From NCBI RefSeq assembly GCF_015776785.2, contig NZ_LFMD02000003.1, forward strand, positions 583,798 to 647,797: a DNA stretch of 64,000 nucleotides, read 5' to 3'. Under the pieces are notes generated by a model, which was not told the DNA's origin, made no database searches, and worked only from the letters and a program-made list of their open reading frames with translations. Each line of letters opens with the position of its first letter. Position 1 is the stretch's first letter. The DNA comes from Kitasatospora sp. SUK 42. GTDB taxonomy: Bacteria > Actinomycetota > Actinomycetes > Streptomycetales > Streptomycetaceae. Shown here one piece after another: positions 45,796 through 55,719 of the stretch. Both the position numbers and the translations under genes were made by a program.

Positions 45796-46402
45796 GCGTT
45801 CTCCATTTCGGGGCAATCAAAATCAAAACAAAACAAGAAAAATAAAATAGAAACGAGCACGCCGACCCTCCTCCAGCCAGGAGGGTCGGCGCACTACAGC
45901 CCAAGCAAAACAGGGCCAAAATTGGATGCCGCTTCTCCGCACATCGAGAGGCGGCATCCAAAAAGAAAAAAATCAAGGCAGAATTTTGTGGCACCTCTTC
46001 GACATGCCGAAGAGGTGCCACTCCGAAATGAGATCTCGCCGCCCAATATGAGACCGGAAAAACAGGACAGGGGGACTGGAGAGAATTGAATAAAAAAATT
46101 GATCCGTCCCCCGAGAGAGATGGTCGGATCCAAAATCAAAGGCACCACAGAGGTCGCCACTCTTACCCTCTACCCCACATCACCAGCACGGTGCCCCTCC
46201 AAGAGGGAGGCTCGCACACGACGCTTCAAGACCGCAGAATGGAAGGAGAAATGAAAATTTGTGGCGCCTCCTCGACGAATCGAGGAGGCGCCACCAAAGG
46301 AAGAAGCCATCCGAAAAATAAGCCCGGCCCCTCGGTGAGTCGAGGGGCCGGGCCAAACACTCGGACCCCTTGCCGCCACCCTGAGCAAGCCAGGTGAAAT
46401 CG
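45796..46402. other. AT-rich hairpin array at the left edge of the accessory region
   Basis: This stretch is far richer in A and T than any other in the window and has no convincing gene. It holds perfect or near-perfect stems: H1 45861-45890 (12 bp), H2 45924-45959 (14 bp, one T-G), H3 45988-46021 (14 bp), H4 46070-46112 (10 bp, long AT-rich loop), H5 46261-46294 (15 bp) and H6 46322-46353 (13 bp). Starts are spaced 63, 64 and, for H5-H6, 61 bases. Linkers are A-rich on the plus strand, so on the minus strand most stems are followed by U-runs. H3 and H5 share GTGGCRCCTCYTCG. It may be stacked terminators for the convergent genes or a multi-hairpin RNA. Confidence 0.7.
46310..46353 (-). terminator. 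Intrinsic terminator of the NUDIX/TPR-regulator unit
   Basis: On the minus strand GCCCGGCCCCTCG and CGAGGGGCCGGGC (loop ACTCAC) are followed by TTATTTTTCGG. It begins 50 bases past the NUDIX stop and is the textbook terminator of the array. Confidence 0.8.
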
Positions 46403-46903
46403 TCAACCATGCCACGAATCGAGGGAGACGCTAGGCCCATTGTTGAGGTAGCTGAGTAGAGCCGACCTGGTGGTGGAGACGAATCCGTCCGGCACGGCGT
46501 CGGCGTCGGCCCACGCGACTTCCGAGTGCTTGTCGGGCTCCCCGTTCGTAAGCTTGCCGGACCACCGGTGAGCGGCGAAAACGACGGTCAGGAAGCCGTT
46601 GGGCGCCTCGACGCCTCGGGCCCCGTGAATGATGTGGGCCAGTCGCAGATCCTCTGGAGAGACGATGAGTCCGGTCTCCTCCTTGAGTTCGCGAACCGCC
46701 GTCTCCGTGATCGGTTCGCCGGGTTCGCTCTTGCCGACGGGAAGATCCCACAGGCCTTGGGCGAACTTGGCTTTGGGCCCTCGTCGCAGGAGGACAACAC
46801 GCTGGGCTTCGAGGTCGTGAACGATCACGGCGGCCACCAGCAGCGTCATCGACTCCGTAGCGGGCTTGAGGGCAGCAGTCTGATCGGAGGTCGGCTGAGC
46901 CAC
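46403..46903 (-). CDS. NUDIX hydrolase
   Basis: The 166-residue protein has a complete NUDIX box (GKSEPGEPITETAVRELKEE followed by TGL), so it should hydrolyse a nucleoside-diphosphate-linked substrate with Mg. The region before it (VVLLRRGPKAKFAQGLWDLP) is typical. The substrate is unknown. It lies 30 bases downstream of the TPR regulator and is probably co-transcribed. Codon use is less GC-biased than in flanking housekeeping genes, consistent with transfer. Confidence 0.92.
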   Translation of the reverse strand: MAQPTSDQTAALKPATESMTLLVAAVIVHDLEAQRVVLLRRGPKAKFAQGLWDLPVGKSEPGEPITETAVRELKEETGLIVSPEDLRLAHIIHGARGVEAPNGFLTVVFAAHRWSGKLTNGEPDKHSEVAWADADAVPDGFVSTTRSALLSYLNNGPSVSLDSWHG

Positions 46904-46933
46904 GTCGGTCGGGTCCTTCCTTCGGTGCGGCTG

Positions 46934-48286
46934 TCATGCCAGTGCCTGGCGTGCCCGGAGCTCCAAGTCGGCGGCTCCTGGAACACCACGTTTACGGTAA
47001 GTCGCCAAGCAAGGGCGAATGGAGGAGATTGCCTTTCTCGTACGGTCCGAGGTCATGCCGTCCATGAGGTCGAGGGCACGTCCCCAGGTTGCCACCGCCT
47101 CATCCGCTCGGGCCTGGGCGGCCAAGCTGTCGCCGAGATCTGCGTAGGTGAGCGCGTGAACCCGCTTGTACCTCTCGGCGTCCCAACGGACCAGCGCGGC
47201 ACAGTGCTGCTGTTCGGTCCCTGCGTGATCTCCGAGGTCGGTGAGAGTGCGGGCCGTATGGCTGGCGACAGTGCCGGCCACCGGGCCGCTGACAAGTGAG
47301 AAGCCGGCCTGCGGGTCACCGTCGCGGGTAAGGGCGTTCTCCGCCGCAAGGAGCGCCTTGGCGGCGGCAGGCTTGTCGCGGGTGGCAGCGAACGCACGGG
47401 CGTGGGTGATGTGGAGGAGCGCCTCGGTCTTTCCGTCCACACGGCTGACGCTTCGGGCAAGAGCGTTCTCGATCAGCGCCACACAGTGGTGGGGTTGCTT
47501 GAGGCTGAGTGCTTGATGTGCCAGGGCACGCATCATCCATCCTGCGTGGCCATGGGGGTCCGCCTCCACGGCGAGCTGGTAGCCGACCTGGTAGTAGTGC
47601 TGGGCCGCGCCCTCCTGACCGAGGTCGTGGTGCTTCCACCCCGCCAGATAGGCAAGTTCGGCTACCGCGCCGAAGGCTCGACGCCGAGCGCTCTCGTCGG
47701 GGAAGCGGCCGTTGAGCATCGGGGCTGCCGTATCGGCGAGATAGGCGGTTACGGTGGTCAGCCCGTGTCCGCCGCCAAGTCGTTCATCTGCGGCGCTGAA
47801 CACGGCGGTGATCTGCCGGATGACCTCGACCTCTTCAGCGCCGACGCGAGCCCTGCCGGTTCGAGCCCGCATCAGACGGGAGATGGGCTCGGGATCGTAG
47901 AACAGTGGCATGGCCACACCAGCAGTGGTGAATGCGGCCACGGCCAGAAAGGTGCGGTGCTCGACATCCGCGCGGCCGAGGTTGGCGACCGCCTCAACCG
48001 GGTCGCGGCTCACCGCGAAGGACTCCTCCGGGGTGGCGAAGCCGAGTTCGGCGAGGGTGACCCTGCGCCCGGAGCGGCGGGACAGCGCCTCAGCGACGTA
48101 CTGACCAACCTGGCCCGCCGGCTGTGCACCGTTGATCCAGTGGGCCACGGCGGACTTGTTGGTGAGCAGCGTCTCGCCGTTCTCCGCGCCGACGCGCCGT
48201 ACGGCGTTCGCCAACGCCTCGTACGTCCACCTTGCGTTCGAAATTGCCTCTCTGAGGCGGTGGTTGGGCTCTTTGCGTGTGGCCAC
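46934..48286 (-). CDS. XRE-like regulator with TPR domain
   Basis: The 450-residue protein has an N-terminal helix-turn-helix-like part (LREAISNARWTYEALANAVR, then NKSAVAHWINGAQPAG) and a long C-terminal set of TPR-like helices. The arrangement matches streptomycete regulators of the NsdA/Rgg-like kind that sense peptides or proteins. AGGGGA lies six bases before GTG 48286, which is preferred over the TTG at 48292. It is divergent from the ATPase-radical SAM operon and is its obvious candidate regulator. Confidence 0.85.
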   Translation of the reverse strand: MATRKEPNHRLREAISNARWTYEALANAVRRVGAENGETLLTNKSAVAHWINGAQPAGQVGQYVAEALSRRSGRRVTLAELGFATPEESFAVSRDPVEAVANLGRADVEHRTFLAVAAFTTAGVAMPLFYDPEPISRLMRARTGRARVGAEEVEVIRQITAVFSAADERLGGGHGLTTVTAYLADTAAPMLNGRFPDESARRRAFGAVAELAYLAGWKHHDLGQEGAAQHYYQVGYQLAVEADPHGHAGWMMRALAHQALSLKQPHHCVALIENALARSVSRVDGKTEALLHITHARAFAATRDKPAAAKALLAAENALTRDGDPQAGFSLVSGPVAGTVASHTARTLTDLGDHAGTEQQHCAALVRWDAERYKRVHALTYADLGDSLAAQARADEAVATWGRALDLMDGMTSDRTRKAISSIRPCLATYRKRGVPGAADLELRARQALA

Positions 48287-48477
48287 GATCAATCCCCTGA
48301 GGTGGAGCTGTAAACCGCGTAAACCACTCTACGTGTCGATGGGCATACCGATTGTGCTGTTTGGGCGGTTCACTGAATGCGAGCTGCTGGTGGGCGCTGA
48401 GCTCCAAATTCCCGAGGGCGAACCGCCGAGCGGCCGCCTACCGCCATGCTGATCAACTCTTCAGTCCGGGAGGGCCG
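48287..48477. promoter_or_regulatory. Divergent promoter region of the accessory regulator and peptide operon
   Basis: These 191 bases drive both the TPR regulator and the ATPase operon. GTAAACCGCGTAAACCACTC (from 48311) contains the direct repeat GTAAACC at an 8-base step, which could be a binding site. GGGAGGG precedes the ATPase start. No -35/-10 pair is clear. Confidence 0.45.
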
Positions 48478-48996
48478 ATGAACACCAACGACTGCACCGT
48501 GCTCCCGATGTGGGAGACCTGGGAAGTGCAGCCGACAACGGCCGCAGTTCGATCCACCCGGCTGTCGCTGGTGCACGCGGCTCGGTCTTGGCCGGTGCCG
48601 CTCTCCGGGGAGTCGCTGCGCGATGTGGAGTTGTGCGCGGCCGAGTTGATCACCAACGCCGTTGAGCACACGGGAAAGCACTGCCAGGTCACCGTCCAGT
48701 GGAACGGCATCCGCCTGCGGGTCGAGGTCGCGGATGCGAGCCCGAGGCTGTCGGCCAGGAACGCGGCCGACGACATGGCCACCAGTGGCCGTGGCCTCCT
48801 CCTGGTGGGGGCGCTGGCTCACTCGTGGGGCTGGTATCCGGTCGAAGCGGGCAAGGTGGTGTGGTTTGAGGTGGCTCCTGACGAGAGCGTGATGGGAGAC
48901 GCACGACTCGCCGCGCTCGTCTCCGTCGCTCAGGCCAGAACACAGAAGCCGGGGCTGCCCCTCGGAGACAAGCCGAATGTGCAGGTCGTGTCGTGA
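48478..48996 (+). CDS. Histidine-kinase-type ATPase (anti-sigma-factor-like)
   Basis: This 172-residue protein is a single GHKL ATPase domain as in RsbW/SpoIIAB anti-sigma kinases. The N box is ELITNAVEHTG, the G1 Asp lies in VEVADASPR and the G2 loop is TSGRGLLLVGALAHSWG. Such lone ATPases are abundant in streptomycetes and often serve signalling. GGGAGGGCCG precedes ATG 48478. Its stop overlaps the next start (GTGA), so it belongs to the peptide operon and may control or sense it. Confidence 0.88.
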   Translation: MNTNDCTVLPMWETWEVQPTTAAVRSTRLSLVHAARSWPVPLSGESLRDVELCAAELITNAVEHTGKHCQVTVQWNGIRLRVEVADASPRLSARNAADDMATSGRGLLLVGALAHSWGWYPVEAGKVVWFEVAPDESVMGDARLAALVSVAQARTQKPGLPLGDKPNVQVVS

Positions 48997-49325
48997 CGAC
49001 CTCCTCCATGTTGCCCCGGTACGAGATCCGCGTGATCGACTCCCGGAGCCCCCACTTCCTGTTGCTGGACTGCTGGGGCATCTACGACCGCGAACAGCAC
49101 ACGTACGTACGTGTTCCGGGCTCTTCGGACCGGATCAGGCGCTTCTACACCCGGCACGCTGCTGAGACGCATCTGCGAGTCCTTCGTGCGGCTGCCGACC
49201 ACCGAGAGAAGGAGAAACATGTTGTACGACCTGATCGCGAGTCCGTTCCTCAACAGCTTCGTTGTGCTTCGGCCGGGTCACCTGGAGGGCATCAGGCTGC
49301 CCGAAGAGCGGTTCCAGGAACTTGA
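48993..49325 (+). CDS. Small protein of the peptide operon
   Basis: The GTG at 48993 overlaps the ATPase stop (GTGA), so it should be translated by coupling. The first ~70 residues look like a real folded protein (LPRYEIRVIDSRSPHFLLLD, then IRRFYTRHAAETHLRVLRAA). The frame continues to 49325 and overlaps the radical SAM gene by 107 bases, where its composition is poor. I do not recognise it. It could be a partner or peptide-recognition protein of the maturase, by position only. Confidence 0.6.
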   Translation: MTTSSMLPRYEIRVIDSRSPHFLLLDCWGIYDREQHTYVRVPGSSDRIRRFYTRHAAETHLRVLRAAADHREKEKHVVRPDRESVPQQLRCASAGSPGGHQAARRAVPGT

Positions 49326-50343
49326 ACGAGCCCGCGACTCCAGCCTCGACGTTCCGTCCTGGCTGGCAGATGCCGCCCGCGTGCGATGGGGAGTGGGACT
49401 GGCTGCTCGACGCGTGGACGCTGCCCTTCTGTTTCGCGACGCCCCGATGTACGGGCACAGCCGGGCGAGCTGGGAGATCAACCTCGGCTGTGACCTGGAT
49501 TGTGAGCACTGCTACCTCGGGGAGAAGCGGTTTGCCGGTCTGGGCGCCGAAGGCAAGCAGCAGCTGCTCCTGATGCTGCGGGACGCCGGAGTCCTGTGGC
49601 TCCAGATCACGGGAGGTGAGGCGTTGATCGACCCGCACTTCGCCGCCTCGTGCCGGCTCGCGTACGAGCTGGGGATGATGATCGAGGTCCTGACGAACGG
49701 CACGCGGCTGTCGAACCCCGCGGTCCTGGAGGCACTTGCCACCAGCAGGCCATACCGGGTCACCGTCTCCCTCTACGGGGCGACCGCGGAAACGTACGAT
49801 TCCTTCACCCGGCGCCGGGGCGCCTACAGGCGGGTCACACGCGGACTGGCCGCCGGGATCGAGGCCGGCCTTCCCCTGCAACTGGCGCTGATCGTCACCG
49901 CGCAGAACGCGCACGAGCACGACCGGATGCGCGCAATGGCGGACGAACTCGGGCTTCCCTACAAGGAGTACACCCACATGTCGCCGACTATCTACGGCGG
50001 CGCCGAATCGCTCGGGTCCCAGTCGCCTGCCCATCTGAAGCCACTCGAACGGTTCGCGGGCTGCAACGCGGGACACACGTTCCTCCACGTCGACCCGCAC
50101 GGAAGGGCCTCGATCTGCAAGGTCGGCCGCGATGAGCAGATCGACCTCATGGCCGAAGGCGTACAAGGCCTCAGCCGGCTCGGCGGAATCGCCGACCGCC
50201 TCATGCTTCGCACCGGTGGCTGCTCCGGCTGCCAGCTCTCCGGCAACTGCTCGGTTTGCCGGCCGCTGGCCAAGCGCTACCAGGAGGCGAAGGCACCACT
50301 GAACACCTACTGCCAGCACGGACAGAAAGGAAACGCAGCATGA
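49219..50343 (+). CDS. Radical SAM / SPASM-domain peptide maturase
   Basis: The 374-residue enzyme has the radical SAM 4Fe-4S motif CDLDCEHC at about residues 95-102, GGEALIDP for SAM binding, and a C-terminal Cys-rich SPASM-like region (FAGCNAGH, ASICKVG, GGCSGCQLSGNCSVC, TYCQHG) for extra clusters. Such enzymes usually make carbon-carbon, thioether or ether links in a peptide. An N-terminal ~75-residue extension precedes the core. AAGGAG lies six bases before ATG 49219. Its stop overlaps the start of a 44-residue ORF, the likely substrate. Confidence 0.93.
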   Translation: MLYDLIASPFLNSFVVLRPGHLEGIRLPEERFQELERARDSSLDVPSWLADAARVRWGVGLAARRVDAALLFRDAPMYGHSRASWEINLGCDLDCEHCYLGEKRFAGLGAEGKQQLLLMLRDAGVLWLQITGGEALIDPHFAASCRLAYELGMMIEVLTNGTRLSNPAVLEALATSRPYRVTVSLYGATAETYDSFTRRRGAYRRVTRGLAAGIEAGLPLQLALIVTAQNAHEHDRMRAMADELGLPYKEYTHMSPTIYGGAESLGSQSPAHLKPLERFAGCNAGHTFLHVDPHGRASICKVGRDEQIDLMAEGVQGLSRLGGIADRLMLRTGGCSGCQLSGNCSVCRPLAKRYQEAKAPLNTYCQHGQKGNAA

Positions 50344-50474
50344 CCGCTGTCATGGTCGAGATGACCGCCACCCGACGTGAGCAGGACGACGAGACGTTGG
50401 AGTTCATCGACAACATGGAGGACTTCGGCACCGACGCCCTCCCCGGGTGCAGCGACGACAACCCGTACCAGTAA
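50340..50474 (+). CDS. Putative RiPP precursor peptide (44 residues)
   Basis: The ATG overlaps the radical SAM stop (ATGA), with AAAGGA eight bases upstream. The acidic N-terminal part (residues 1-29, ending EFIDNMEDF) looks like a leader. The C-terminal GTDALPGCSDDNPYQ holds one Cys, two Pro, one Tyr and three Asp and looks like the core. A perfect terminator starts 12 bases after the stop. Size, acidity, position and coupling fit a precursor modified by the upstream enzyme. I do not recognise the family. Confidence 0.72.
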   Translation: MTAVMVEMTATRREQDDETLEFIDNMEDFGTDALPGCSDDNPYQ

Positions 50475-50485
50475 GGCGCACACCC

Positions 50486-50521
50486 CCGGAGGCCGACGGC
50501 TGCGGTGCCGTCGGCCTCCGG
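50486..50521 (+). terminator. Perfect 15-bp stem terminator after the peptide gene
   Basis: CCGGAGGCCGACGGC and GCCGTCGGCCTCCGG pair perfectly around TGCGGT. It closes the ATPase-maturase-peptide operon and separates it from the phosphotransferase. Confidence 0.85.
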
Positions 50522-50546
50522 CCTGACTTCTGGGACCCTGGACACC

Positions 50547-51356
50547 GTGACCACCACCCGCATCCACTGGGCAGATCTGCCCGACTCCGCGCACCAGGCC
50601 GTCACCGCCCGCCTCGGTATGCCGGTCCTTGCCGCGGAGACCGTCTCGGCCGGATTCAACTCCGAGATCGCCGCCAAGCTCACCACCACCGAGGGTGCCG
50701 TCTTCGTCAAGGGAATGCAGCTGAGCCACCCACGCGTGTGGACGCAGCGGCGCGAGGCGGAAATCAACCCCTACGTGGAAGGAATCGCCCCCGCGCTGCT
50801 GTGGCACCTGGAGCTTGGCGGCTGGAGCCTCGTCGCGTTCAAGTACGTTGAGGCCCGTCACGCGGACTACAAGCAGGACGGAGACCTGGAACTGATGGTC
50901 GACGCCCTCAGTCGACTCGGCCGTACCCCGTGCCCGCCGATCGAGCTTCGCCGTGCCGAACAACGCTGGGCGACCTACGTGGACGACCCCGGGATGCTGG
51001 CCCGACTCGCTGGCAACTCCCTGTCGCACACTGACCTGAACAACGAGAACGTCCTGATCCAGGGGGACCAGGCACTTCTGGTCGACTGGGCGTGGGCCAC
51101 CCGTGGAGCGCCCTGGATCGACCCGGCCCTGTGGGTGATCTGGCTGATCGCAACGGGCGACCGCAGCCCAACTGAGGCAGAGGCCTGGGCCGCCAGGCTT
51201 CCTGCATGGAGGCTCAGCGATCCGACGGTTGTGGACGCCTTCGCGCACGCCCAGGCCCGCATGTGGGCCGACATCGCCGGAGACGACCCGGACCCGTGGA
51301 CCGCCAGCCTGAACCAGGCAGCCCAGCAATGGGCTCGCCACCGAGGCAGCCGCTGA
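50547..51356 (+). CDS. Phosphotransferase of the APH/protein-kinase-like fold
   Basis: The 269-residue protein has the catalytic loop LSHTDLNNENVLI and metal-binding Asp in LLVDWAWATRG, as in aminoglycoside and choline kinases. The substrate is unknown. GTG 50547 lies 26 bases after the terminator; no binding site is visible, so it is probably transcribed separately and leaderless. Position next to the peptide operon suggests, but does not show, a link such as modification or self-protection. Confidence 0.85.
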   Translation: MTTTRIHWADLPDSAHQAVTARLGMPVLAAETVSAGFNSEIAAKLTTTEGAVFVKGMQLSHPRVWTQRREAEINPYVEGIAPALLWHLELGGWSLVAFKYVEARHADYKQDGDLELMVDALSRLGRTPCPPIELRRAEQRWATYVDDPGMLARLAGNSLSHTDLNNENVLIQGDQALLVDWAWATRGAPWIDPALWVIWLIATGDRSPTEAEAWAARLPAWRLSDPTVVDAFAHAQARMWADIAGDDPDPWTASLNQAAQQWARHRGSR

Positions 51357-51379
51357 TCATCCAACGGGCCTGGCGGGTG

Positions 51380-52285
51380 TCAGCGCGACGCTTCGCACCA
51401 CGATCGGTTCCGCCCGCTTCTGGCTGGTCGCGAGGCCAAGAGGGCGGTGCGAGCGCGACTGGCGCCTCTGACCGCAACGGAAGCGGCGCAGCCGCTCGCG
51501 GCGGATCGCTTCACGAGACCGGCGCAGGAGCGGCAGATGCCGGGCCGAGGCACCGGATCGCGGCACTCCCTGCACTCGGTGTACCGGGCGGTGGGAGGAC
51601 GCTCCGGGCTTCGGGGTGGCGGCATCTTGTGTTGCAGCCGGTATCTGAGAACGGCAGGCGCCGAATGCATGGGGGCGGGCAGGCCCGGGAGCAAGGCTTG
51701 GATCAGGTCGGCCGGGGTGCTTCCGCGCCGCAGCCATTGGGCCACCAAGGGCGCCAGCTCTTCTGCCTCGGCTTGGCCCAGGCGGAGCCGGGGTTCGGGG
51801 CGGATCACCCGGAACAGGGTCGCCACCGCTTCCCGGAGCTGCTCGTCGGGCAGGTCGTCCAGGCGCACTTTCTCAGTGGCGGCCGGAAGCGGGGGGAGGG
51901 AGGTTCCTTGGTCCCGTTCCTTTACTACAGGGAGGTCTGTACGCCCGGTGGTTGGTTCACCGGCGGCCGGACGGGTGGCAGTCGGTGCCGTCAACCACGG
52001 GGTGTCGTAGACGTGGTTCTCAGTCCGTACGGTGCCGTCGGGCAGCCGGATCGTCTCGACGCGGTAGAAGCCGGCGTCGGTGAGTTCCTTGAGGGCCTTG
52101 CGAATTGCTCCCCGGCCCTGGGGGCTGGTGTCGGCCATGTGGCGACCGCCCTCGCGCCAGCCGTCGGGGCGGGAGAGGAGGTCGGCGAGGAGGCCTCGGG
52201 CGGTGTAGCTCAACTTCCGGTACTGCAGAAGGGCGTTGGGCAACACGGTGAAGTGATGTACGTGTTGGGTACGATGGATGCGCAT
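51380..52285 (-). CDS. Helix-turn-helix protein of accessory-element type
   Basis: The 301-residue protein starts MRIHRTQHVHHFTVLPNALL and has a winged-helix-like N-terminal domain (LSYTARGLLADLLSRPDGWR, QGRGAIRKALKELTDAGFYR). A Pro-rich linker and a C-terminal CRECRDPVPRPGICRSC zinc-finger-like pair of CxxC follow. I recall this type as frequent in streptomycete accessory regions and near plasmid-like genes. GGAGAAGC precedes the ATG. It converges on the phosphotransferase. Confidence 0.82.
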   Translation of the reverse strand: MRIHRTQHVHHFTVLPNALLQYRKLSYTARGLLADLLSRPDGWREGGRHMADTSPQGRGAIRKALKELTDAGFYRVETIRLPDGTVRTENHVYDTPWLTAPTATRPAAGEPTTGRTDLPVVKERDQGTSLPPLPAATEKVRLDDLPDEQLREAVATLFRVIRPEPRLRLGQAEAEELAPLVAQWLRRGSTPADLIQALLPGLPAPMHSAPAVLRYRLQHKMPPPRSPERPPTARYTECRECRDPVPRPGICRSCAGLVKRSAASGCAASVAVRGASRARTALLASRPARSGRNRSWCEASR

Positions 52286-52603
52286 CGGGAGTTGCTTCTC
52301 CTGGTGCCGGACCCCGGGGTGTTGTGAGCATCGCCGGGGTCACTTTTCTGTTTGAGTACGGAACGTAGCACGGCACCGACATCGACAACTGCCTTTTAGG
52401 GCAACGGCGTTTATCGCACTTTCCACCGAGGGGGCGTGACCTCGACGGCGGGAAGTGGGAGGCGGCCCGATCTGGGACGGTTATGGGGTGGTCGGCTACA
52501 TCCATCCCATGGAGTGTGCGGGTTGGTCACATAGTCCAGGGCGCAGGGACTTCCTGCCTTGTGGCGACATCGTCCGCTCCCTCCGCCTCTGGAAGTGGTG
52601 ACC
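52286..52603. promoter_or_regulatory. Upstream region shared with the MHS transporter (repeat copy 1)
   Basis: The left part (52286-52440) is AT-richer and should hold the promoter of the minus-strand helix-turn-helix gene. From 52480 the sequence is a diverged copy of the region before the MHS transporter (54224 onward), including TTATGGGGTGGTC, ATGGAGTGTG, CACATAGT and CTTGTGGCGACATC. Confidence 0.65.
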
Positions 52604-52696
52604 ATGAAGGCCCCTGCACTCGGCTCGGTGGCGACCAGTTCACTCCCGCAGGTGGTGGCCGCGAGTCTGATCGGCACGACGATCGAGCGGTACGAC
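52480..52696 (+). repeat. Direct repeat, copy 1 (about 220 bp)
   Basis: Covers promoter region and first ~30 codons of a transporter gene and matches 54224-54444 with scattered substitutions and small indels. Similarity stops after TACGAC at 52696. Confidence 0.88.
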
Positions 52697-52738
52697 GCCT
52701 CGCTCTGGACCGGCTCCCACCTGCGGGTTTGCCAGTAG
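52604..52738 (+). pseudogene. Truncated 5' remnant of an MHS-family transporter
   Basis: The frame reads MKAPALGSVATSSLPQVVAA then SLIGTTIERYD, matching the intact transporter start MNVPARGSAATSSLPRVVAA then SLIGTTIEWYD. After YD the match ends and a stop follows at 52736. The conserved Trp of IEWYD is changed to Arg. The remaining ~410 codons are missing, so it cannot make a transporter. Confidence 0.85.
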
Positions 52739-52942
52739 AGGGCCGTCAGAGTCAGCACGAAACCGGCACGGTGATCCCAGAAGCGTCCTAGCCAGCACTG
52801 ACAGCGAGAGCTCACAGCGAAGCGCCCCCAGCAGCGAGTCACCCAGCGTTACAGAACTCGCCCTGTTCGAGGCCCTCAGTCAATCGAACGGCGGTCCACT
52901 GACCCCGAGTTGAGCCGCCTCCGTATCCGCTAGTCCGGTTCC
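52697..52942. other. Non-coding stretch after the transporter remnant
   Basis: No frame with coding character is seen. Together with 52286-52696 it makes a region of more than 600 bases without an intact gene. Confidence 0.45.
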
Positions 52943-53770
52943 GTGAGCCGGAGTGCACTGAATGACGGGGTGATGGTCGGGGTTGTCAACAACCTCGACG
53001 ACCTCGGCATGTTCAGCGTGCCCTTCCAACCGCTCCACTCCCGTCGGCAAGTCTTCGTTGCAACGAACACCTACAAGCAAGCCGAACTCATACATCAACG
53101 AATGTCCAGGGCGGCCCACTTCAGGGCGGCTCCCCCTAAAGCCATCTTCACGGTCATGAACAACTCTGACCCGTATGAAGAGAAGCTTTTGGAGCGGGCG
53201 GCTCAGTGGTCCCTCGAATTTCGCATTCTCGCCAGGCTGGCACCGGATGGCGACCCGCGCAATTTCTCCGCTGCCACGCTGACGCGCCTCCTTGCCCAAC
53301 TTCGGAGGACACCCCGGCGTCCGCAACCGAAGTCCGCCGAGCTAGACCTGCCCAGGCTGCTCTCGGTCGAGGGGAAGCGCCTCGCCCGGAGCGCCGGCCT
53401 CGAAATCGCTCGTCGTCAGGTTGAGGTGGAGAGACTCACCTGGGATCTTGAGCCTGGACCACCCCCTCTCGGCCACCTTGACCGCTGCAGCCCCTTCCAG
53501 GGCCTCACTGAACTGCTTGTCCTGCACGAGCTCTGGGTTCGACATCGGATTCAACACGTCTCCGAATGCCTCCTTCTCCGCACGCTCCGGAAGCTCAAGG
53601 GCGCACAGGCTCGTCCAGCTGTCACGACAGCGATCCTGCCGCGATCGTGGGTCTGCGTCTGCGGCACAGAGAGGCTGGCAGCGCCCGTCGTCCCCCGGGC
53701 GCCACAAAAAGCCCCTTTGCCTGCCATTAGTCAGCAAGGGGGCCGAAAGGTGTTCACGCTCGCCGCGTAG
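52943..53770 (+). CDS. Doubtful hypothetical ORF between the repeat copies
   Basis: This 275-residue frame has reasonable composition in its first ~130 residues (GMFSVPFQPLHSRRQVFVAT, KLLERAAQWSLEFRILARLA) and fairly high GC at third positions. It has no recognised domain and no ribosome binding site. A terminator-like hairpin for the opposite strand lies inside its 3' end. On the minus strand, 53342-53557 (ending LDREQPGQV) also looks partly coding. One or both may be decayed. Confidence 0.33.
   Translation: MSRSALNDGVMVGVVNNLDDLGMFSVPFQPLHSRRQVFVATNTYKQAELIHQRMSRAAHFRAAPPKAIFTVMNNSDPYEEKLLERAAQWSLEFRILARLAPDGDPRNFSAATLTRLLAQLRRTPRRPQPKSAELDLPRLLSVEGKRLARSAGLEIARRQVEVERLTWDLEPGPPPLGHLDRCSPFQGLTELLVLHELWVRHRIQHVSECLLLRTLRKLKGAQARPAVTTAILPRSWVCVCGTERLAAPVVPRAPQKAPLPAISQQGGRKVFTLAA
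53706..53743 (-). terminator. Minus-strand intrinsic terminator
   Basis: On the minus strand GCCCCCTTGC and GCAAAGGGGC (one G-T pair) are followed directly by TTTTTG. It implies a minus-strand transcript entering from the right, yet no minus-strand gene is evident there. Confidence 0.6.
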
Positions 53771-53803
53771 CCCTACAGTGCCCCGCCCTCGGAGGGGACA
53801 CCT

Positions 53804-53974
53804 ATGCCACAGATCAACCTGCCGCCGGACACGCCCTGGTGGTTCATCGCGCCTATCGTCGCCGTGCTGGCCATCGCGGTCGCCGTCCGTATGGTGGCCG
53901 GCGCCATCCTGCCCCGGCAGTCTCGCGACCGCCTGAGTTGGTGGAAGCTCTGGTTCAACCGGCCGCGGAAGTAG
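53804..53974 (+). CDS. Small single-span membrane protein (56 residues)
   Basis: The product begins MPQINLPPDTPWWFIAPIVA and has one hydrophobic helix (residues 12-35) followed by a basic tail ending KLWFNRPRK, predicted to face the cytoplasm. GGAGGGG lies about seven bases before ATG 53804, a strong binding site, and TACAGT sits some 30 bases upstream. I do not recognise the family; small proteins like this are common in mobile elements. Confidence 0.68.
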   Translation: MPQINLPPDTPWWFIAPIVAVLAIAVAVRMVAGAILPRQSRDRLSWWKLWFNRPRK

Positions 53975-53991
53975 GAGCGCGAGAACGCTGG

Positions 53992-54175
53992 GGGACGCGT
54001 TCTGCGTCCCGACCTCCGACTTGGTCATCTCGGCCCGCGCCCCAGATGTCCTGGGGCGCGGGCCGTCGTCATGAGGTACACAAGTAACACGAGTTGGGGC
54101 CGGGCCTGCGCACGGAGCGCAGGCCCGGCCTTCTCGATAGGCAACGTCGCCGTTCGGCGAAGCCGAAGCGGCGAC
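53992..54175. terminator. Cluster of four hairpins before the transporter
   Basis: Stems are GGGACGC/GCGTCCC (53992-54010), GGCCCGCGCCCCAG with its perfect complement (54032-54064), GGCCGGGCCTGCGC with its perfect complement (54098-54130, then TTCTC), and GTCGCCGTTCGGC/GCCGAAGCGGCGAC (54146-54175). They start 40, 66 and 48 bases apart. They would end plus-strand transcripts from the accessory region before the transporter. Confidence 0.75.
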
Positions 54176-54223
54176 GGGCGACCGACGAGGGTGGGGGGTG
54201 GGCAACGGCCAGACGCCGAAGGG

Positions 54224-54444
54224 GTTATGGGGTGGTCAGGCATATCCACCCTATGGAGTGTGTGGGCCAGCCACATAGTGACGGGGGCGGGGGCTTCCTA
54301 CCTTGTGGCGACATCCTCCGCTCCCTCCCTCCGGCACTGGAAGTGGTGACCATGAACGTCCCTGCACGTGGTTCGGCGGCGACCAGCTCACTCCCGCGGG
54401 TGGTGGCCGCAAGTCTGATCGGCACGACGATCGAGTGGTACGAC
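54224..54444 (+). repeat. Direct repeat, copy 2 (promoter and 5' end of the transporter)
   Basis: This is the intact counterpart of 52480-52696. It includes the leader region and the first ~30 codons of the functional gene. Confidence 0.88.
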
Positions 54445-55719
54445 TACTTCCTCTACGGAACGGCCGCGGCGCTGGTGTTCGGGAAGGTGTTCTTCCCGAA
54501 CAGTGATCCGCTGACGGGGACGCTGCTGTCGTTCCTGACCTACGCGATCGGATTCGCGGCGCGGCCGCTCGGGGCCCTGGTGTTCGGGCACTTCGGGGAC
54601 CGGGTGGGGCGCAAGAAGCTGCTGGTGCTCAGCCTGCTGCTGATGGGCGGGTCGACCACGGCGATCGGGTTGCTGCCGACGTACGACTCGGTCGGGGTGA
54701 TGGCACCGGTGCTGCTGACGGCGCTGCGGCTGGTGCAGGGCTTCGCGCTCGGCGGGGAGTGGGGCGGGGCGGTGCTGCTGGTGTCGGAGCACGGGGACCA
54801 GCGGCGGCGGGGGTTCTGGGCGTCCTGGCCGCAGGGCGGGGCGCCGGCCGGGAACCTGCTGGCGGCGGGGGTGCTGTCGCTGATGACGTCGGTGCAGTCG
54901 GAGAGCGCGTTCCTGGCGTGGGGGTGGCGGGTGCCGTTCCTGCTGTCGGCGGTGCTGGTGGGGGTCGGACTGTGGATCCGGCTGGCGGTGGACGAGTCGC
55001 CGCTGTTCCGGCAGGCGTTGGCGGCACGAGAGGCACGGAAGGGAGAGGCCGCTGAGAAGCCGCCGCTGATCGCGGTGTTGAGGAACCACTGGCGGGAGGT
55101 GCTGGTGGCCATGGGCGCGCGGATGGCGGAGAACATCTCGTACTACGTGATGACGACGTTCGTGCTCACCTACGCCGTCAACCACGCACACTTCGACAAG
55201 CAGAGCGCGCTGAACGCCGTACTGATCGCCTCGGCGATCCAGTTCGCGCTGATCCCGCTGTTCGGGGCGCTGTCGGACCGGGTCGGGCGCAGGCCGGTGT
55301 ACCTGGTGGGCGCGGCCGGGGTCGGGGTCTGGGCGTTCGTGTTCTTCGGGATGGTCGACACGGAGTCCTTCGGGGCGCTGGTCGTCGCGGTGACCGTCGG
55401 CCTGGTCTTCCACAGCGCGATGTACGCGCCCCAGGCGGCCTTCTTCTCCGAGCTGTTCGCCACCCGGATGCGGTACTCGGGGGCCTCGATCGGCGCCCAG
55501 TTCTCCTCGGTGGCGGCCGGCGCGCCCGCGCCGCTGATCGCGACCGCGCTGCTCAAGGACTACGGCAGCGCAACACCCATCTCGGTCTACGTGGCCATCG
55601 CGGCGGCGATCACCGTGCTGGCGGTGCTGTGCGGCCGGGAGACCAGGGGGCAGGACCTCGCGGCCGTCGAGGAGCAGCCCGCGGACGGCGTCACGGCCGG
55701 AAAGCCCGCCGTGGCCTGA
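54352..55719 (+). CDS. MHS-family MFS transporter
   Basis: This 455-residue protein is a proton-linked importer of organic acids, by family. It has 12 predicted helices, the MHS start SLIGTTIEWYDYFLYGTAAA, the MFS loop GHFGDRVGRKKLLVLSL and its second-half counterpart GALSDRVGRRPVYLV. ATG 54352 follows GGAAG. The PucR-type regulator lies directly downstream. With bdhA now 8.5 kb upstream, I infer that hydroxybutyrate or a related acid is the substrate. Confidence 0.92.
   Translation: MNVPARGSAATSSLPRVVAASLIGTTIEWYDYFLYGTAAALVFGKVFFPNSDPLTGTLLSFLTYAIGFAARPLGALVFGHFGDRVGRKKLLVLSLLLMGGSTTAIGLLPTYDSVGVMAPVLLTALRLVQGFALGGEWGGAVLLVSEHGDQRRRGFWASWPQGGAPAGNLLAAGVLSLMTSVQSESAFLAWGWRVPFLLSAVLVGVGLWIRLAVDESPLFRQALAAREARKGEAAEKPPLIAVLRNHWREVLVAMGARMAENISYYVMTTFVLTYAVNHAHFDKQSALNAVLIASAIQFALIPLFGALSDRVGRRPVYLVGAAGVGVWAFVFFGMVDTESFGALVVAVTVGLVFHSAMYAPQAAFFSELFATRMRYSGASIGAQFSSVAAGAPAPLIATALLKDYGSATPISVYVAIAAAITVLAVLCGRETRGQDLAAVEEQPADGVTAGKPAVA

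Follow-up and report, generated by a model that had tools for sequence, protein, structure and literature searches.

The window examined here, a stretch of 64,000 nucleotides from Kitasatospora sp. SUK 42, contains a gene for a radical SAM/SPASM enzyme that runs directly into a 44-residue open reading frame, raising the question of whether the two are a RiPP maturase and its precursor peptide and, if so, which of the surrounding genes belong to the same system. An earlier note on this DNA had proposed an operon of four genes encoding an ATPase, a 110-aa protein, the radical SAM enzyme and the peptide. All four frames were confirmed with their coordinates, as were the stop-start overlaps GTGA (48993) and ATGA (50340), and the 110-aa frame overlaps the maturase gene by 107 bp. 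The extent given for the operon stood only in part: these genes are present, but the third core gene, a kinase gene immediately next in line, had been missed. The features of the locus, in window positions, are the following.

45796-54400, no strand assigned: genomic island of ~8.6 kb with lower GC, holding all features below (limits approximate)
46403-46903, minus strand: NUDIX hydrolase, not core, homologues common and mostly unlinked
46934-48292, minus strand: divergent NsdA-family TPR regulator, TPR regulators being near many but not all loci
48478-48996, plus strand: HATPase_c_2 (RsbW-like) protein, optional, upstream in only ~30 of 73 loci
48993-49325, plus strand: 110-aa ORF, not core, seen solely in the window's lineage and at the shared regulator locus
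49219-50343, plus strand: core gene 1, radical SAM/SPASM maturase of 374 aa with CxxxCxxC and SPASM cysteines
50340-50474, plus strand: core gene 2, precursor peptide of 44 aa with leader ~1-28 and tail 29-44 (FGTDALPGCSDDNPYQ)
50445-50471, plus strand: conserved tail GCSDDNPYQ, Pro invariant, one Cys, Tyr covarying with the kinase
50486-50521, plus strand: perfect 15-bp inverted repeat with a 6-base loop, between the precursor and kinase genes
50547-51356, plus strand: core gene 3, APH-fold kinase with invariant HTDxxxxN and active-site Asp, its frame being open from 50505

A precursor peptide gene adjoins the maturase gene at all 143 near-full-length maturase loci, which come from Streptomycetaceae, Actinomadura, Nonomuraea, plasmids, viral contigs and Streptomyces phage Success and include some strains found in two collections (the maturase tree comprises 136 distinct proteins). 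Some fragmentary maturase matches, located at contig ends or frameshifted, were left out of this count; at one fragmentary match (L044, a Pseudonocardiales MAG) no peptide was seen. The peptide frames are 38-78 residues long, usually overlap the maturase stop codon via ATGA or GTGA, and carry, with few exceptions among the 143 loci, the tail motif C-x(3-5)-[DS]-[NQ]-P-[YHFN]. When the 70 distinct peptides of the first locus set were anchored on their last proline, this residue was invariant and preceded by Asn or Gln, the two residues ahead of that were almost always Asp-Asp, and a single, universal Cys stood 5 or 7 residues ahead of the proline. The residue after Pro is Tyr, His, Phe or Asn, sometimes with one further residue behind it. 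In the window's lineage, the tail is under purifying selection and the leader is not (pN/pS 0.16 vs 0.85).

GC-rich DNA is rich in short open reading frames, and the 44-residue frame might have been a chance ORF behind a housekeeping radical SAM enzyme, but this explanation has already been refuted by the homologous peptides found downstream at every locus and by the strong selection on the tail relative to the leader, and we give it practically no credence. That the radical SAM peptide family is real is near certain. The expectation of the earlier note that the tail would be conserved together with the maturase across genomes was borne out, as was its reading of the two genes as a RiPP-type maturase and precursor pair of no known class. 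It had named maturases lacking a downstream peptide, or a peptide frame free of purifying selection, as evidence against the pair; with a peptide at all 143 loci and a constrained tail, neither was encountered.

The maturase has a clear Pfam radical SAM domain with CxxxCxxC at residues 91, 95 and 98, followed by seven cysteines in a SPASM pattern (CX12GX4C ... CX2CX5CX2C ... C, cysteines 282-365). The folds closest to its AlphaFold model, in which the SPASM part is of low confidence, are SkfB, BlsE, EpeE and SuiB. Residues ~1-60 are predicted with good confidence to form three strands and then two helices (residues 5-57), an order suggestive of a PqqD-like RiPP recognition element (RRE); the N-terminal profile matched no RRE in the PDB, and sequence comparison linked the domain to none of the known RREs. 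The locus shows the arrangement that defines radical SAM RiPPs, a radical SAM/SPASM enzyme beside a short precursor with a leader and a conserved core. Sactipeptides and ranthipeptides are defined by a thioether joining Cys to another residue and by several core cysteines, and the tail here has one universal cysteine. No NCBIfam equivalog reached its cut-off for the maturase. The best score was that of mycofactocin MftC (71.8 bits vs a cut-off of 265), too far below for membership, and class V lanthipeptides (LxmK kinase, 14.3 bits vs 315) and prokaryotic viperins (NCBIfam, 31.4 bits vs 180) were rejected likewise; a weak PADLOC viperin match of the maturase is restricted to the radical SAM core.

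Clustering of neighboring genes across 73 loci revealed only one further conserved position, directly after the peptide gene, which is occupied by an APH-fold kinase or, in other loci, by a GNAT acetyltransferase. The cassette core is three genes: maturase, peptide, and kinase or GNAT. In the kinase, the catalytic residues (HTD and Asn of HTDxxxxN, and the active-site Asp) are invariant, and its model is confidently APH-like (pLDDT 94), with APH, MPH, LicA (choline) and fructosamine kinases nearest and the corramycin phosphotransferase among the fold matches; a sequence search against the PDB gave no match for the kinase. The GNAT is recognized by Pfam Acetyltransf_1 above cut-off, and the possibility that kinase and GNAT are one family was dismissed by profile comparison (probability 0.2%). 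In one sub-clade (L196, L202, L039, L138, L145, L188, L041) a fourth gene of ~150-160 aa with no Pfam match follows the kinase gene.

The inverted repeat between the precursor and kinase genes had been taken for a perfect terminator. It is indeed a perfect hairpin, but since it has no T-run and a terminator scan made no call, a terminator at this site is not established. A stable hairpin (z below -2) occupies the same place in 61 of the 73 loci, and it probably sets the precursor:kinase ratio or serves in processing the mRNA.

The other genes that the earlier note had drawn into the system did not hold as core parts and were ruled out by their neighborhood frequencies. Homologs of the GHKL ATPase lie upstream in only ~30 of the 73 loci, and the 110-aa protein was found by tblastn at only a few of them, always in the window's lineage or where its regulator locus is shared. 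Close homologs of the NUDIX protein occur in 61 of 200 genomes but mostly unlinked, so it is not core, and TPR regulators, of which the divergent one had been thought to complete the system, are near many loci but not all. The ATPase is probably regulatory and optional and the NsdA-family protein is a probable local regulator; together with the 110-aa ORF and NUDIX, these genes look like regulators and neighbors. In genome G187, NUDIX, TPR and ATPase genes with 86, 92 and 77% identity to those of the window precede a GNAT-type cassette, a gene order indicating that cassettes have been exchanged behind one regulator set.

Carriage of the maturase family is patchy, amounting to ~20% of the sampled Streptomycetaceae genomes: it was found in 79 of 395 genomes of this family, in 17 of 70 of the window's genus, and in 71 of 393 of a second Streptomyces sample that partly overlaps the first, and also in Actinomadura and Nonomuraea. 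In a phylum-wide sample of 396 genomes, matches lay solely inside the Streptomycetaceae. The cassette of these soil actinobacteria is mobile, carried by phages and plasmids. The isolated Streptomyces phage Success (NC_073472.1, L214:266-2380) has a complete cassette as its genes 1-3, labeled in the record as kinase, hypothetical protein and oxidoreductase (the maturase), and further copies are in the Streptomyces nigrescens element phiDSM40276, on plasmids and in four IMG/VR contigs, two of which (L199 and L202) have phage-like tail or lysis genes nearby, judged from translations. The presence of a whole RiPP cassette on a phage raises the question of what such peptides do for phages. On one Streptomyces plasmid, a gene for an S66-family peptidase follows a GNAT-type cassette (L198:8804-9847); S66 peptidases include MccF, the microcin C immunity protein.

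The island in the window has a GC content of 60-69% compared with 70-74% around it and is flanked by an SDR and an MFS gene, which are direct neighbors (gap < ~330 bp) in 11 of 12 related genomes. Two genomes with SDR and MFS adjacent, G069 and G114, have a cassette on the same contig tens to hundreds of kilobases away. The 5' region of the MFS gene is partially duplicated in direct orientation on the island's right side (52479-52714 and 54223-54464, 83% identity over 242 bp), which may mark how the island entered. In G069, two cassettes (L107 and L072), one of the kinase type and one of the GNAT type, lie ~18 kb apart. At L042, L189, L190 and L121/L128 (the last in G114) the maturase gene is frameshifted or contains stops and the peptide is kept, consistent with an expendable accessory trait.

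This distribution also bears on a reading in which the peptide serves as scaffold for a small redox cofactor or a signal, akin to PQQ or mycofactocin, and not antibiotic-like. The top score of the maturase for MftC, a tail ending in Pro-Tyr and the lack of a conserved exporter (the cassette loci share neither a dedicated protease nor an exporter) speak in its favor. We nevertheless find it quite improbable, as the MftC score is far under the mycofactocin cut-off, the terminal residue varies among Tyr, His, Phe and Asn and can be followed by one more, and patchy carriage on phages, plasmids and about a fifth of genomes is unlike that of a cofactor.

The choice of third gene goes hand in hand with the residue after the tail proline. 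Where the kinase is present this residue is Tyr (102 of 102 loci), and where it is absent it is His, Phe or Asn (41 of 41): 31 His, 5 Phe and 3 Asn at the 39 GNAT loci and Phe at the 2 loci with neither enzyme. On the tree of 136 distinct maturases, each trait switches three times, always jointly with the other, and two of the switches fall on well-supported branches; with only about three independent switches, the covariation is too sparse for a claim of significance (sign test, p 0.5). The clearest event, the third switch, is a natural deletion. Two loci, L181 and L197, with the order maturase, peptide (DNPF) and a gene for a hypothetical protein, are nested among kinase-bearing relatives (L039, L138, L145, L188, L196, L202) with the order maturase, peptide (DNPY), kinase and the hypothetical protein gene, and no kinase remnant was detected in either. 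The change from Tyr to Phe removes exactly the hydroxyl to which a kinase would transfer phosphate. L181 and L197 also have an additional gene, for a 151-aa protein with a Cys-rich end (CSQCHSGCSESNY) and no Pfam family match, which may replace the kinase.

Because the residue is fixed as Tyr with the kinase and drifts without it, and because the change to Phe drops the hydroxyl, we infer that the kinase likely acts on the tail tyrosine (Tyr43). The small number of independent switches leaves room for the association to be an artefact of shared ancestry, the GNAT clade having His, Phe or Asn tails by chance. This we consider rather unlikely, given a clean single-gene loss accompanied by a Tyr to Phe change within a kinase-bearing clade, and given that across 96 distinct maturases the residue drifts among His, Phe and Asn without the kinase and never leaves Tyr with it.

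We predict that the maturase recognizes the leader, probably with the RRE-like domain at its N terminus, and that its radical SAM/SPASM chemistry very probably modifies the tail Cys-x(3-5)-Asp-Asn-Pro-Tyr, most likely by cross-linking at the universal Cys or the Asp/Asn residues. The APH-fold kinase would then phosphorylate the phenol of the tail Tyr as the last tailoring step or as self-protection; in sister cassettes, in which the residue is His, Phe or Asn, a GNAT would stand in for the kinase. Removal of the leader and export, if any, would fall to host proteins. We regard this model as a whole, a three-gene mobile RiPP cassette in which the maturase modifies the tail and the kinase phosphorylates Tyr, as moderately probable.

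Finding either a kinase or an acetyltransferase behind the same two biosynthetic genes is reminiscent of how peptide natural products are tailored or enzymatically detoxified by their producers. If the kinase or GNAT were purely a tailoring enzyme making the active compound, with no protective role, its gene would be placed as in these cassettes, directly 3' of the precursor gene; biosynthetic RiPP kinases and acetyltransferases are known in lasso peptides (PMC9266682), and the two cassettes that dropped the kinase together with its target residue are easier to reconcile with tailoring than with loss of immunity. The nearest folds, however, are antibiotic-inactivating, choline and fructosamine kinases, and resistance enzymes typically show this kind of replacement by an unrelated acetyltransferase, so that purely biosynthetic tailoring is a strong contender that falls just short of probable. 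A more specific reading, which we hold to be unlikely, is that the matured peptide is toxic inside the cell and the kinase or acetyltransferase is the antidote that modifies it, the cassette being a phage- or plasmid-borne weapon or exclusion system. If true, the cassette would amount to a RiPP counterpart of toxin-antitoxin systems with a modifying enzyme as the antitoxin, and the carrier element would gain against competitors or superinfecting phages.

Whichever role applies, the choice between kinase and acetyltransferase tracks a single peptide residue, and the role of each enzyme is therefore addressable by a single substitution (Y43F). The cassette apparently represents a radical SAM RiPP family with an exchangeable kinase or acetyltransferase that is undescribed so far. 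In a literature search covering papers outside subscription, the tail motifs DDNPY, GDDNPY, GDDNPH, SDDNPY, NDDNPY, GDDQPY and GDDNPF were in no paper and combined terms found no description of the cassette, and no family model describes the radical SAM peptide family. In public records the peptide appears as "hypothetical protein", the kinase as "aminoglycoside phosphotransferase" and the phage maturase as "oxidoreductase". An uncharacterized peptide family is present in about one-fifth of sampled Streptomycetaceae genomes, too small and plain to be named by family models.

Among known systems, SkfB, EpeE and SuiB (sactipeptide, epipeptide and streptide) share with the window's maturase the radical SAM and SPASM fold and a location next to a short precursor whose tail is modified (a modification proposed here for the window's peptide), but identity is ≤19% and the precursor tails are unrelated. 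To our knowledge, these systems have no kinase or acetyltransferase partner. Mycofactocin MftC/MftA and PqqE/PqqA likewise pair a radical SAM/SPASM enzyme with a short peptide having a Tyr near its C terminus; they differ in that the window's maturase scores only 71.8 bits against the MftC cut-off of 265 and the position of the tail Tyr is variable here. For the third gene, the lasso peptide kinase PadeK phosphorylates a conserved C-terminal Ser of its precursor (PMC9266682), and PadeK and AlbT resemble our cassettes in that a kinase is paired with a conserved tail hydroxyl residue and an acetyltransferase occurs in other clusters (PMC9266682), although the RiPP class is another and the residue is Ser there and Tyr here. 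The corramycin kinase ComG is an APH-like enzyme that inactivates this peptide antibiotic (PMC10996006). Like the window's kinase, ComG has an APH fold and is encoded with a peptide natural product, acting on corramycin as the window's kinase would act on its own peptide (PMC10996006), but corramycin lies outside this peptide family and the two kinases share 19% identity.
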